Virus record (IMG/VR): IMGVR_UViG_3300023176_000591
Location: 1-42,133 of that record
DNA length: 42,133 nt
Direction: 5' to 3' (one strand)
Source of the DNA: a virus
Shown: positions 17,785 through 22,773 of the stretch, one piece after another
Numbering within the stretch: the first letter of the stretch is position 1
Layout of the letters: the number at the start of each line of letters is the position of its first letter
Notes under the pieces: model-generated
Databases searched by the model: none
The model's input: only the letters and a program-made list of their open reading frames with translations
Told to the model about the DNA's origin: nothing
Position numbers and translations under genes: made by a program

Positions 17785-18117
17785 TCAGTGAGGGTAGTTG
17801 CTAGTTTGCTTGTGGAGACCAGAGAAGTGATAAAGAAGAATGCAATAGTGAATTGCTTTCAGGATGTCTTGCTTAGACTTACCATTCTTCTTGCCGAAGC
17901 GAGACAGATACTTGATCGCATTTGATCGGCAGAATGGTTCTGCATCACCGATGCTCTCGATAAGATCCAGTGTCTGAGTTTGAGACTCTTGAGAAGTGTA
18001 GTGAGCACGATAAGTTCCAGACAAATACTCACGCACTTCCTTGAGTGTCAGATCTTCTTCATACTTCCAAAAGTGAGAGGGTTCAAGATTCAATTTGAGT
18101 TCGTTTTCGTTTTCCAT
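17785..18117 (-). CDS. DUF3310-type protein
   Basis: The 110-residue protein begins MENENELKLNLEPSHFWKYE; its second half has the DUF3310 pattern: DLIESIGDAEPFCRSNAIKY followed by a basic GKKNGKSKQDILKAIHYCI helix. DUF3310 proteins are common in phages and are often called nucleotide-kinase-like, with no proven activity. The frame opens to 18168; an alternative start at ATG 18150 would overlap pebS by 8 nt. It lies between pebS and gp45. Confidence 0.75.
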   Translation of the reverse strand: MENENELKLNLEPSHFWKYEEDLTLKEVREYLSGTYRAHYTSQESQTQTLDLIESIGDAEPFCRSNAIKYLSRFGKKNGKSKQDILKAIHYCILLYHFSGLHKQTSNYPH

Positions 18118-18142
18118 AATATCAGAGAGTAGGCTCCATGCA

Positions 18143-18760
18143 TTAACCATAAGTAAACAGGAAGTCATTGACTAAACTTTCTGCTTTATCCTTACCAAAG
18201 TTAGAAGATAGATACCCTGCAACAGGATCAAGTTTCTTCATGTAAGAATCAAAGTCAGAATAGGAACTAGTATCCGTTCCAATGGGCATCTTAGATTCTA
18301 GCATATTTTTGTATACAGTCAAGTAATTCTTGAAAGAATCTAAGTAGTTGTCAACCTCTTCAGAAACACATTTGCGAATGAATAGGTTGTCAGAGAAGTG
18401 ATTGCCAGGTTCAAAGAATCTAATACCACCTTCACACTTTGGAAGTCCATCAACTGAGAAACGATAATGTTCTCTTGGATGCTGGAAGTCAAAAGTAATG
18501 ACAACTTTCTTTGGAAAGAACATCATTAGATCCATACCAAAGCAGGGTAGATCTGATCCAGTCTTTGGATAGATGATGTTATTGTAAATACAAGTCTTCT
18601 CATTCCAGATTTCAACTTCTCTAGATTTGAGAATGTGCTTGTTGCTATAGAGTTTGGCGGAAAGGGAGAGATTCTTTCCCTCCCAGTCTGCCCAATCTGC
18701 AATGTTCTCTAGGTCAGGAAATACTTCCCAAAGAACTTTTTTGTAATTATTCCATACCAT
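18143..18760 (-). CDS. pebS: Phycoerythrobilin synthase (ferredoxin-dependent bilin reductase)
   Basis: The 205-residue product begins MVWNNYKKVLWEVFPDLENI and matches the recalled cyanophage PebS sequence through most of its length: YPKTGSDLPCFGMDLM, FDFQHPREHY, the FSVDGLP loop, RFFEPGNHFS and YSDFDSYMKKLDPV. The two aspartates reported as catalytic in PebS correspond to Asp77 and Asp178 here. PebS makes phycoerythrobilin from biliverdin in one four-electron reduction using ferredoxin, replacing host PebA plus PebB. It lacks about 25 residues at the N terminus of the Prochlorococcus phage protein. It overlaps cobS by 14 nt. PcyA or PcyX are less likely from these motifs. Confidence 0.9.
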   Translation of the reverse strand: MVWNNYKKVLWEVFPDLENIADWADWEGKNLSLSAKLYSNKHILKSREVEIWNEKTCIYNNIIYPKTGSDLPCFGMDLMMFFPKKVVITFDFQHPREHYRFSVDGLPKCEGGIRFFEPGNHFSDNLFIRKCVSEEVDNYLDSFKNYLTVYKNMLESKMPIGTDTSSYSDFDSYMKKLDPVAGYLSSNFGKDKAESLVNDFLFTYG

Positions 18761-19823
18761 CTTCAGTCTCCTTGAACTCTACATCAGCATCAACCTTGTC
18801 ATACAATTCTTGGAAGGACTGCTTGGTTTCATCATCGAAACGGTTGAGGCAGATCTGAATTGCCTTTGCTTTGTCACCAAAGATGTTGTATGCCTTGATG
18901 ATGTGAACCAGGCGACGGGTGGAGATGACTTCATCGACACCACCGTCAGCAAAGGTCTTGCGGATAATGTCTGCCCAGTCAGCAAGACGCTTACAGAATT
19001 CAGCATCTGCACACAGTTTGTTGAGAATTTTGATCTCAGTAGCAGGAGTAGGATACTCTTGCTCAAAGGTAATCGGGAAACGCTCAAGGAATGCTTCGTT
19101 CAAAACGTTAGTGCCGATAAAGCGTCCGTCATCAGAACCCTTGCCTTTGGTGTTGGCAGTAGCAATCACATTGAAACCAGCAGCAGGTTGAACGTACTTG
19201 CCGATCTTCTTCAAGAACACTCCTTTGCCTTCCAGAATAGATTGTAGGCACAGAATCTTATTAGATGCAAGATCAATCTCGTCTAGAAGCAGCACAGCTC
19301 CCCTCTCCAGAGCCTCAACAACGGGTCCGTTGTGCCAAACAGTTTCACCAGCAACCAGACGGAAACCACCAATAAGATCATCCTCGTCAGTTTCGATGGT
19401 AATGTTGACACGAATCAGTTCCCGTCCCAGTTGAGCACATGCTTGCTCAACACCGAAGGTCTTACCGTTGCCAGACAGACCAGTGATAAACGTGGGGTAG
19501 AAGATCTTGGACTGAATGACTTTCTTGATATCGTTGAAGTTGCCGAACTTGATAAAGTTATCATCTTTCTCTGGGATAAGGTTTTGCTTCACACTATCCA
19601 TAGTCTGAATGTTATCTTCAAACTGCTGACGTGCTTCTTCAACAGTGAGGTTCCATTTGTTGTAACCGACTTTATATTGCTCAAGTCGCTTGCTGACAGT
19701 GGGGTAGGAAGCACCAAACTCAGAAGCAGCAGCACGGATAGCATCTGCTCCAAACTCAGATCCAAAGTTGTCCTGAAGGAAAACCGTCAGAGCGTCCATG
19801 TTGATGTTGGTTTTGCGAGGCAT
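18747..19823 (-). CDS. cobS: CobS-like / MoxR-type AAA+ ATPase
   Basis: The 358-residue protein begins MPRKTNINMDALTVFLQDNF. An N-terminal region (about 20-52) looks like a helix-turn-helix, then comes an AAA+ core with Walker A GLSGNGKT (115-122), Walker B VLLLDEID (177-184) and a sensor-like ATAN stretch. Cyanophages commonly carry this gene under the name cobS, after the AAA+ subunit of cobalt chelatase in B12 synthesis; equally it has the MoxR form that works with VWA-domain partners. Such a partner lies two genes upstream at 20648-22744, which favours a MoxR/VWA machine. It has its own promoter and an AGGGAG ribosome site. Confidence 0.85.
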   Translation of the reverse strand: MPRKTNINMDALTVFLQDNFGSEFGADAIRAAASEFGASYPTVSKRLEQYKVGYNKWNLTVEEARQQFEDNIQTMDSVKQNLIPEKDDNFIKFGNFNDIKKVIQSKIFYPTFITGLSGNGKTFGVEQACAQLGRELIRVNITIETDEDDLIGGFRLVAGETVWHNGPVVEALERGAVLLLDEIDLASNKILCLQSILEGKGVFLKKIGKYVQPAAGFNVIATANTKGKGSDDGRFIGTNVLNEAFLERFPITFEQEYPTPATEIKILNKLCADAEFCKRLADWADIIRKTFADGGVDEVISTRRLVHIIKAYNIFGDKAKAIQICLNRFDDETKQSFQELYDKVDADVEFKETEDGME

Positions 19824-19853
19824 TGTGGGGTGTCTCCCTTTGTGTATGTATAT

Positions 19854-19881
19854 ATTATACATGAAAAAACCGCCCTCACAA
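19854..19881 (-). promoter_or_regulatory. Sigma70-like promoter for cobS-pebS-clamp genes
   Basis: Minus strand TTGTGA (19876-19881) and TATAAT (19854-19859) with a 16-nt spacer. The -35 box lies in the loop of the terminator hairpin just upstream, so termination of one operon and start of the next share the same DNA. Confidence 0.6.
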
Positions 19882-19889
19882 GGGGCGGT
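19863..19889 (-). terminator. Rho-independent terminator after the methyltransferase gene
   Basis: A 7-bp stem (ACCGCCC with GGGCGGT, 19869-19875 and 19883-19889) with a 7-nt loop, followed on the minus strand by six T residues. It ends the VWA-methyltransferase transcript 10 nt after the methyltransferase stop. Confidence 0.85.
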
Positions 19890-19898
19890 GGACAGTTG

Positions 19899-20651
19899 TC
19901 AGATTGGCAGTCGAGCACCAACTAGGTCTCGGTAGCGTTCCAACGATTTGTCATAGTATGATTTGTCAAGTTCACAACCAAGAAAGTTTCTATCAGATTG
20001 TGCAGCAGCAATCATTGTAGATCCAGAACCACTAAAGATATCAAGGACAGTATCTCCAGGATTGGTATATGCTTTGATGATTCTTTCCAGTATCATCAGT
20101 GGTTTCTGAGTCGGATGCCAGTTTACATATTCTTTACTAGTGGTGTGGTTGTTTTTCTCCCACACACATGTAGGAATGGTTCCCTTTTCATATGCTTTCC
20201 CAGTCCTCAGGTTTTTAGAAACTTTTCTTTCTACACGAACATCGTCAGCGTTGAATAGAAACTGTTTACCCTTAGACCAGCACCAAGCATATTCATGCTT
20301 TCTAGCAAAGTTGTTCTTACCTCTGCCACCCCAGTTGTAACTCCAAACAATCTCATTTTGTGGGGTGAGTGCAGAGTTGTGATCAGTTGTTCTCAACTTA
20401 TAAAGAAGAAATGTCTCGGTCTTCAGAGTTCCAAAGACTACAAGCATTCTCTCAGGTTTGAGAACACGAACACATTCTTCTGTCCACTTGTCACACCACT
20501 CAAGGTATTCTATTTCACTACCCCATTGAGAGTCCCAACCTTTACCACCGTCAAATCCAATAAAATAAGGAGGATCAGTTAGAACCAGATCCACAGAGTT
20601 GTCTGGAATAGATTTGATATACTCCAGACAATCTTGATTAGATAAGGTCAT
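19899..20651 (-). CDS. DNA methyltransferase, N6-adenine/N4-cytosine (beta-type order)
   Basis: The 250-residue product begins MTLSNQDCLEYIKSIPDNSV. The catalytic DPPY motif (26-29) comes near the N terminus, and the cofactor motif DIFSGSGST lies near the C terminus (about 211-219): the beta-class order. HPTQKP (about 190) precedes it as usual. No restriction gene is beside it, so it is an orphan methylase. It differs from the D12-class Dam-like gene at 14372, giving the phage two methylases. It is coupled to the VWA gene by ATGA and ends at a terminator. Confidence 0.93.
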   Translation of the reverse strand: MTLSNQDCLEYIKSIPDNSVDLVLTDPPYFIGFDGGKGWDSQWGSEIEYLEWCDKWTEECVRVLKPERMLVVFGTLKTETFLLYKLRTTDHNSALTPQNEIVWSYNWGGRGKNNFARKHEYAWCWSKGKQFLFNADDVRVERKVSKNLRTGKAYEKGTIPTCVWEKNNHTTSKEYVNWHPTQKPLMILERIIKAYTNPGDTVLDIFSGSGSTMIAAAQSDRNFLGCELDKSYYDKSLERYRDLVGARLPI

Positions 20652-22744
20652 GCGATGATGGAGATGAATTCGGTCAGGATTTTTTTGTTTAGTGCTTTAG
20701 AAGAGAGGGACTTCTTGAAAGCGTTACGGATCTGAGTCTTGGTTGCCGACTCTTCCACATCAAATTCTACACTATTGTTGAGAGAATTGCAAGCGATAGC
20801 GAAGAATGCATCGAACCCAACTTTCTTGATCACAACAGACTTCTCTTTACGCCACTGCTTATTGACTCGCTCACGATCTTCCCAAGAAACCCAATCCCGT
20901 TGGAAGTTAGCAAAGTCACGACCACTGACCAGACGAATACCAATAATGTTAGTATTGGGAAGTGTTTCACTAAGGTCTTTGATCAAGTTAGAAGTTTGAT
21001 CACTGTAACAACCAATTTTGGTGACATGACCAGTCTTACGATTGCGAAGATAGGTTCGATCATCTACAGAATTGACTCCCCAGTAATCTTTACTGTAAAG
21101 ACTTTGCTCCTTAGGAATACAAATGGATGAACGAATTGGTGCAGACTCACCATCAGTCAGAATAATTGCATTGACCTTTTCAACACCAGTCTTATTCTGA
21201 AAGTGTGGGATGATTTGATGTAGAGTAATGATAGCATTGTTCAATGGAGTGCCACAGAGACCGTAACTAGGAGGAACACTGTAATCAACAAAGTAACGGA
21301 AACTGTATGCCATTCTCCACAGATTGAGCATCTGCTGGTCAAGTTGCTTAGTCTTCGATTCACTGCTGATAAGGTTCAGCATCTTGAAATCATTGAAGAA
21401 AGCCACAGTGTTCTCAACTTTGGGAGACATCCAGCGTTCATCATCATCGTGAGCAAACGAATTGATGAATGCATAGAGTTCAAAAGGAATCTTGACCTTA
21501 CGACAGAAAGAAATAAGATTCAAGACTTGCTTGACAGTATCAAGAATAACCTCACCCATAGAACCAGACCAGTCAAGAACAAACACAAGACCATGGTTTT
21601 TACCGTCAGGAAGGACAGTAACTTTCCTAAAGAGATCTTCATTGTACTTATAAGTGTGAAGTTTGGTGCAGTCAAGAACCCCAGTGCGAGAAGTAGTTGC
21701 CCGCGCATAAGCAGCAGCAGACTTCTTACACTCAAACTCTTTCACCATGTAGTTGACTTCTTTAGCAGAAGACTTACAAAACTGGCGATAGGATAAATCA
21801 GAATTCTCGAAGGATTCTTGAGGAAAGACACTGAAGTGGTCATTGATATCAGCAAGAACTTTGTCATGTGAATGAATCACCTTATCGAGATCAAGATTGG
21901 GAATCTCGATATACTTATTATCATTACCACCAAATCCAATCAGATCTTTGAGTTGCTCATCCAACTCACTCTGAGTTTTTACCTCTGGTTCGGGCGATTC
22001 AGCATCAGCAGAATCTGAAAGAGACTGAACACTGCCACCAGCAGTGTTGTCAGAAGTCTCAACTTGCTCCTGAGATTGATCAGAATCCTCTTCCGAATCG
22101 ATTTGGATTGATTCGGATTGGGGTTGACCGTCAGTTGATGCCTGTGGAGAACCCTGATTGGTAGGTTGCTGTTGATCTTCCTGTTGCTTCTTGTGCTGAT
22201 CCTTACAGTAGCGGTACAGTTTTTTAGCCGCATCGATAGCATCCTCAAAAGTTTCTGCGTCTTCAATAATCTTGATGATATCACTCTCTTCTTGGTTGAA
22301 GAAAGGGACTGTAACAAAGTTACCAATCTTGAAATAAAGATTGGCACGGTCGGCAAGGTTCATCTCACCAACATCTTCATCTCCAATAGAGAAGAAGTCC
22401 TGATCAGCAAGGTGATTGTAACCCTTATAGAAAGTTTTACGAAGACCACCAAACTTACGCTTCATCAGTTTCTCAACACGAACGTCCTCAGTGACATTCA
22501 GAAACTGCATAGGTACATTACATTTTTTCTTCCAGTCTTCGTTAGGGGTATACAATGCATGACCAACCTCATGGGCAACCAGCAGGTCAAACACTTGGTT
22601 GGAAGCACGTTTCCAGTTAGGCAGAGTCAACACACGCTTCTGTACGTCAAACTGAGCAGTCTCAACGTTACGGTGCTCAACGATTAGGTTCTCAGTAGCG
22701 AGCAGTTTAGCGAGTTGACCCTTGACTTCTAGATTGACGGACAT
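20648..22744 (-). CDS. Large VWA-domain protein with HExxH motif (CobT-like)
   Basis: The 698-residue product begins MSVNLEVKGQLAKLLATENL. An HExxH zinc-peptidase motif, His58-Glu59-Val-Gly-His62 (AHEVGHALYTP), lies in the N-terminal domain, followed by NVTEDVRVEKL, which could supply a third ligand. Residues about 190-280 are a Gln/Ser/Glu/Asp-rich linker. The C-terminal half is a von Willebrand A domain with a full MIDAS motif (D-W-S-G-S, near 395) and a later threonine (CGTPL) and TDGES segment. Partner proteins of MoxR AAA+ ATPases and the CobT chelatase subunit have this build. GAGAGGT sets the start at ATG 22744. Cobalt chelation, protein remodelling or proteolysis all remain possible. 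Confidence 0.85.
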   Translation of the reverse strand: MSVNLEVKGQLAKLLATENLIVEHRNVETAQFDVQKRVLTLPNWKRASNQVFDLLVAHEVGHALYTPNEDWKKKCNVPMQFLNVTEDVRVEKLMKRKFGGLRKTFYKGYNHLADQDFFSIGDEDVGEMNLADRANLYFKIGNFVTVPFFNQEESDIIKIIEDAETFEDAIDAAKKLYRYCKDQHKKQQEDQQQPTNQGSPQASTDGQPQSESIQIDSEEDSDQSQEQVETSDNTAGGSVQSLSDSADAESPEPEVKTQSELDEQLKDLIGFGGNDNKYIEIPNLDLDKVIHSHDKVLADINDHFSVFPQESFENSDLSYRQFCKSSAKEVNYMVKEFECKKSAAAYARATTSRTGVLDCTKLHTYKYNEDLFRKVTVLPDGKNHGLVFVLDWSGSMGEVILDTVKQVLNLISFCRKVKIPFELYAFINSFAHDDDERWMSPKVENTVAFFNDFKMLNLISSESKTKQLDQQMLNLWRMAYSFRYFVDYSVPPSYGLCGTPLNNAIITLHQIIPHFQNKTGVEKVNAIILTDGESAPIRSSICIPKEQSLYSKDYWGVNSVDDRTYLRNRKTGHVTKIGCYSDQTSNLIKDLSETLPNTNIIGIRLVSGRDFANFQRDWVSWEDRERVNKQWRKEKSVVIKKVGFDAFFAIACNSLNNSVEFDVEESATKTQIRNAFKKSLSSKALNKKILTEFISIIA

Positions 22745-22767
22745 CGGACCTCTCTGTGTATGCACAT

Positions 22768-22773
22768 ATTATA
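22768..22773 (-). promoter_or_regulatory. -10 box before the VWA gene
   Basis: Minus strand TATAAT, 24 nt before the VWA start. No -35 box is recognisable. The 19 nt from the -10 box resemble those at the cobS promoter (both contain TATAATAT and CATACACA with the same spacing). Confidence 0.45.

Follow-up and report, generated by a model that had tools for sequence, protein, structure and literature searches.

In this study we found that the cyanophage gene annotated as cobS and the gene of a VWA protein carrying a conserved HExxH motif constitute an obligate-looking pair. We consider it probable, largely by analogy with cellular systems, that their products make up one MoxR-vWA protein-remodelling machine of the CbbQO/NorQD/midasin type, which would act at the early or middle stage of infection and would not be directed at corrins. 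This reading is supported by the pairing of the two genes, by the conservation of their motifs, by the fold matches of both the VWA and the AAA+ parts, by the lack of CobN in the examined phages and in one host family, and by the absence of late motifs upstream of the genes.

The stretch of DNA that was analysed (the window), a virus record 42,133 nucleotides long, comes from a marine cyanophage of the Kyanoviridae, and its central 11 kb is 94.5% identical to Synechococcus phage S-BM3 (Kyanoviridae). The minus-strand order of genes is gp47, gp46, the VWA/HExxH gene, a methyltransferase gene, cobS, a ferredoxin-dependent bilin reductase gene, gp45 and gp44. For the three minus-strand genes that concern us here (VWA/HExxH, methyltransferase and MoxR AAA+), the positions and protein descriptions were as an earlier note on this DNA had given them (Table 1). 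The VWA gene has an alternative GTG start 7 codons upstream of the ATG. The longest ORF of cobS encodes 371 aa, which is 13 codons more than the 358-aa form with the S-BM3 start.

Table 1. Positions of the genes and sequence elements of the locus within the window.
Feature	Position	Strand	Remarks
VWA/HExxH protein (CobT-like adaptor, 'peptidase')	20648..22744	-	698 aa from ATG; phrog_459/T4-GC146
Putative metal site, HExxH (58-62) to N-x-x-E-D-x-R-V-E (83-91)	22472..22573	-	coordinates from residue numbers
VWA MIDAS motif codons: D391-W-S-G-S395, T499, D531	21152..21574	-	motif span
Orphan beta-class N4/N6 DNA methyltransferase	19899..20651	-	4-nt overlap with VWA gene
MoxR-clade AAA+ ATPase 'CobS' (phrog_249)	18747..19823	-	358 aa from S-BM3 start
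Intrinsic terminator-like hairpin, methyltransferase/cobS gap	19869..19889	-	from sequence
-10-like element upstream of cobS, TATAATATATACATACACA	19841..19859	-	from sequence
-10-like element upstream of VWA gene, TATAATATGTGCATACACA	22755..22773	-	from sequence

To count co-occurrence without bias, IMG/VR loci were fetched independently with the VWA protein alone or with CobS alone. CobS was encoded downstream on the same strand in 60/60 of the VWA-fetched loci whose flank reached 1.5 kb or more, and the VWA gene was found upstream in 64 of the 65 CobS-fetched loci (55/55 where the flank was at least 2.5 kb). The two genes were separated by 51 to 4680 bp, with median gaps of 162-301 bp, and two loci (L090 and L114) kept the pair although no gp46 or gp45 neighbour was detected in their vicinity. 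Named phage records contained both genes in equal counts (Synechococcus 365, Cyanophage 61, Prochlorococcus 24, Pelagibacter 3). Moreover, the distance matrices of the VWA protein and CobS were correlated (r = 0.80, partial r = 0.63, 0/1000 permutations). However, because the partial correlation of gp45 and gp46 was comparably high (0.60), co-divergence alone is no proof of contact. In Pelagibacter phage HTVC008M, Ochrobactrum phage OC and Stenotrophomonas phage DLP6 the two genes likewise lie side by side or almost so, and phages of Rhizobium, Pseudomonas, Salmonella (SSU5) and Vibrio (ICP2) encode cognate CobT/CobS pairs. The view of the AAA+ and VWA proteins as a pair, already expressed in the earlier note, is thus borne out.

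The same note had included the methyltransferase as a third component, and this part did not hold. The methyltransferase was present in just 4/61 and 2/68 loci, in copies either 97-100% or about 76% identical to that of the window, and it is therefore a sporadic passenger between the pair, outside the system. The idea of a novel three-gene system, with the methyltransferase as the supplier of substrate or specificity, draws on its co-directional position and its overlap with the VWA gene; given its distribution, on which the idea was rejected, and the terminator-like hairpin that parts it from cobS, we regard this as extremely improbable. A defence system was also rejected, as neither CobS nor the VWA protein was recognised by PADLOC.

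CobS is a MoxR-clade AAA+ protein with intact Walker motifs, in which a small N-terminal helical domain is followed by AAA_5 and a CbbQ_C-like lid. The protein matched Pfam AAA_5 with an E-value of 2.8e-18 and CbbQ_C above the cut-off. Its Walker A sequence is GLSGNGKT, and the residues of Walker A (GxSGNGKT) and Walker B (LLLDEID) were invariant in the alignment. The best matches in the fold search were NorQ/CbbQ (Z ~12), the sequence-profile matches were midasin, CobS, NorQ and CbbQ, and cellular CobS (PDB 9ujv, 2e-25) was among the top PDB sequence matches. The AF2 model of the phage protein was weak (pLDDT 71, pTM 0.44), with three helices and two short strands predicted for residues 10-60 at pLDDT ~80-90. 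The helix-turn-helix that the earlier note had described as an addition to CobS corresponds to this predicted N-terminal helical region, which has a weak match to DUF2089-HTH (E=0.008, below the cut-off). It is not particular to the window phage, since phrog_249 aligns from residue 16 of the 371-aa ORF. It might, as the note suggested, act on DNA.

The VWA protein comprises an N-terminal zincin-like domain with the HExxH motif, an acidic/low-complexity linker (residues ~196-247), a helical arm and a C-terminal VWA domain. Its N-terminal 190 residues hold both the HExxH (H58-E-V-G-H62) and an N-x-x-E-D-x-R-V/I-E motif. Residues H58, E59, H62, N83, E86, D87, R89, E91, D391, S393, S395 and D531 were at least 97% conserved across 113 homologues, which indicates that the HExxH and MIDAS motifs are not due to chance, and the second His of HExxH was followed by the downstream Glu after 21-27 residues. 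In an alignment of the 71 homologues with 41-51% identity to the window protein, T499 of MIDAS was at least 90% conserved, and D-x-S-x-S and D531 were invariant. The AF2 model built from this alignment (pLDDT 82.6) places HExxH within helix 49-65, behind a small strand set, and the Glu motif in the next helix (79-97). Judged by these predictions, the protein appears to possess the HExxH helix and the downstream ligand of a zincin, and we take HExxH with the downstream Glu to be the gluzincin-type metallopeptidase pattern. The closest folds to the VWA part were the NorD VWA and the MIDAS domain of MDN1 (midasin), both with Z 15.9; no zincin-family structure was among the matches listed, a list filled by VWA matches in which the N-domain was barely probed and obtained no fold match of its own. 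The protein had no direct match above chance in Pfam and none among PDB sequences, and genome contigs, scanned for cellular relatives using an alignment of two sequences, yielded none.

Similarly, the window VWA protein did not match the Pfam CobT models (PF06213/PF11775) or the NCBIfam CobT model (TIGR01651). Because the direct profile comparison of the cyanophage N-domain with that of cellular CobT gave no match (probability 0.4%), the link between them needs a Rhizobium-phage intermediate. The p107 protein of Rhizobium phage V1VFA-S matches the CobT VWA model (8e-36) and has the same HExxH/N-x-x-E-D motif. Its N-domain matched the cyanophage N-domain with 98% probability (E 2.6e-14) and that of cellular CobT weakly (42%, E 2.6e-4) and colinearly; the related N-domain of Pseudomonas phage hairong matched Pfam CobT above the cut-off. 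CobT-like proteins with the HExxH motif were encoded by phages of Rhizobium, Salmonella (SSU5), Vibrio (ICP2), Gordonia, Ochrobactrum, Stenotrophomonas and Pelagibacter, whereas none of the 29 cellular (alphaproteobacterial) CobTs had it. In Nickievirus-type CobTs it is gone while the CobS partner is retained, which weighs against peptidase chemistry. The simplest inference is a single family whose metal site would have been lost from cellular CobT and, likewise, from the CobT of Nickievirus. A bolder reading, which we consider possible but doubtful, is that viral CobT-like proteins are active zinc peptidases under the control of a MoxR motor, widespread among phages and unrelated to B12, and that cellular CobT is a descendant with a decayed peptidase site.

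The same gene pair has been described as cobST by Liu et al. 2021 (PLoS Biol, PMC8651126), who called it a core cyanophage cluster, considered cobT 'mistakenly annotated as a peptidase' and proposed a role in B12 synthesis. According to this proposal, a viral CobST cobalt chelatase would replace the host ChlI/ChlD-type subunits and bind host CobN, so that more (pseudo)cobalamin becomes available for ribonucleotide reductase and methionine synthesis. Cellular cobaltochelatase resembles the phage pair in its AAA_5 and VWA domains, and its N-domain is joined to the phage one through the chain of profile matches. However, the phage proteins miss the equivalog cut-offs: CobS, despite having cellular CobS among its best PDB matches, scored 62.9 bits against TIGR01650 (cut-off 558.55), and the VWA protein, although a distant CobT relative through the Rhizobium-phage intermediates, gave no CobT equivalog match and carries the conserved HExxH that is missing from 29/29 cellular CobTs. 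Cellular CobS/CobT also need CobN. A CobN/ChlH-type gene was found in a cyanobacterial control genome, but CobN was absent from 8 whole phage records. Moreover, Pelagibacter phage HTVC008M carries the pair, while a CobN-type gene occurred in 0/147 genomes of its host family, a set centred on a Pelagibacteraceae genome; the search did detect such genes in an Albidovulum genome and five control genomes. SAR11 is known to be auxotrophic for B12 (PMC9296465). Therefore, cobalt chelation cannot be the general role of the pair, and B12 synthesis cannot explain its presence in HTVC008M. The argument from CobN absence covers the HTVC008M host family. Cyanobacterial hosts make pseudocobalamin, and a B12 role may apply there. 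Overall, the role other than B12 at which the earlier note had hinted is likely, and we find a viral CobST chelatase quite improbable.

The likeness of the 19-nt regions before both units, from which joint control had been suggested, is real: TATAATATATACATACACA and TATAATATGTGCATACACA were the sole two matches in the window to the 19-nt pattern at up to 3 mismatches, although the expected count of 0.2 is an unfair test since the pattern was drawn from those two sites. In relatives (~100 distinct loci for each gene), the region upstream of both genes commonly contains a terminator, then a -10-like TATAAT/TATGAT/TATTAT, then CATAC or CAGTT. As far as sequence can tell, the 19-nt elements are a general early/middle-type promoter and not a private joint signal. 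The late motif NATAAATA, which in the window precedes gp22 and another late-region gene, though not every late gene, was present upstream of the two genes in 0/97 and 2/105 regions. The neighbours of the pair in unrelated phages are replication genes (gp46/gp45/gp44, ligase and Pol III alpha, primase). The -10-like sites without late motifs, taken together with these neighbours, point to early or middle action of the pair, which is read from consensus promoter sites, and argue against late virion assembly. Article texts, supplements aside, yielded neither expression nor virion data on the pair.

Virion assembly was proposed by Iyer et al. 2021 (PMC7824862) for pairs of MoxR and metallopeptidase-vWA proteins in group 2.2 jumbo phages, where, like here, a MoxR AAA+ gene lies beside one whose vWA product begins with a metallopeptidase domain. 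Such a chaperone with a peptidase would process or fold structural proteins, which agrees with the core status of the gene in cyanophages and with the ATV p618/p892 pair, whose members interact and are proposed to act as a chaperone in tail development. The pair studied here, however, belongs to ordinary-size cyanophages and unrelated phages, and its genes reside within a replication/recombination cluster behind -10-like, not late, promoters. The cognates in other phages also adjoin replication genes, and a halovirus pair sits within a replication/accessory module (PMC7911831). We thus regard a function in virion assembly as unlikely.

The protein-remodelling machine that we favour has among its closest known counterparts CbbQ-CbbO and NorQ-NorD, which gave the best AAA+ and VWA fold matches and share the design of a motor with a MIDAS adaptor, the mechanism of which has been described for CbbQO (PMC4660213). 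In contrast to the phage pair, their targets are rubisco or NO reductase, the alignments to the phage proteins reach ~10-25% identity, and the N-domain with HExxH distinguishes the phage adaptor from CbbO/NorD. By analogy with these two systems and with Rea1/midasin, 'CobS' would form a hexameric motor driven by ATP, and the CobT-like protein would be its adaptor, whose VWA/MIDAS would grip an acidic residue of the target protein. The N-terminal metal-binding zincin-like domain might recognise or cleave the target, and ATP hydrolysis by CobS would remodel it. We infer a physical complex of the two proteins and the direction in which it would act; proteolysis may be part of its action, its timing would be early/middle, in line with the predicted expression, and its target would most likely be a protein involved in the replication/recombination of phage DNA or in host takeover.

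Since the pairing is reported in both PMC8651126 and PMC7824862, it is not new in itself. Our contribution lies in counting co-occurrence without bias, in the conserved metal motif and how widely it is spread, in the bridge of sequence matches to CobT, in the test on a host family free of CobN and in the promoter evidence. For nearly every T4-like cyanophage, and throughout many papers on marine viromics, cobS is listed as an auxiliary metabolic gene for B12. If the pair is indeed a protein-remodelling machine, the B12 inferences drawn from cobS would be wrong, and one cyanophage core gene of unknown role would become directly testable.

The N-terminal domains of phage CobS, the MoxR-clade AAA+ protein, vary: the proteins of Rhizobium and Pseudomonas phages (loci L164 and L165) carry a zinc-finger/MucR-like N-terminus, according to weak Pfam matches, whereas a small helical domain occupies this site in cyanophage CobS. 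Among the CobT-like partners, the Nickievirus-type proteins (L165, L175-L177, L180, L182 and L183) keep the VWA domain and are missing HExxH, with SEIAK found at the position of HEVGH in the protein of Pseudomonas phage hairong. The absence of the motif is probably a loss.

The bilin reductase gene adjoins cobS in only 16 of the 101 loci. The best cellular matches of the HTVC008M ribosomal protein S21 included Albidovulum and Pelagibacteraceae.

Genes neighbouring cobS or the CobS/VWA pair (L161, Pelagibacter phage HTVC008M; other coordinates, window)
Gene	Coordinates	Position	Match
Ribosomal protein S21	L161:8810-9013	adjoins CobS/VWA pair	
Ferredoxin-dependent bilin reductase	18143-18760	immediately after cobS	Fe_bilin_red, 3.8e-17
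Small ORF	17785-18168	between bilin reductase and gp45	phrog_21972/480; weaker similarity to nucleotide kinase families

In cyanophage S-CREM1, ORF198 was described as a "unique MoxR ATPase" (PMC9964418). Since cobS goes unmentioned in that paper, ORF198 may simply be the CobS of S-CREM1.
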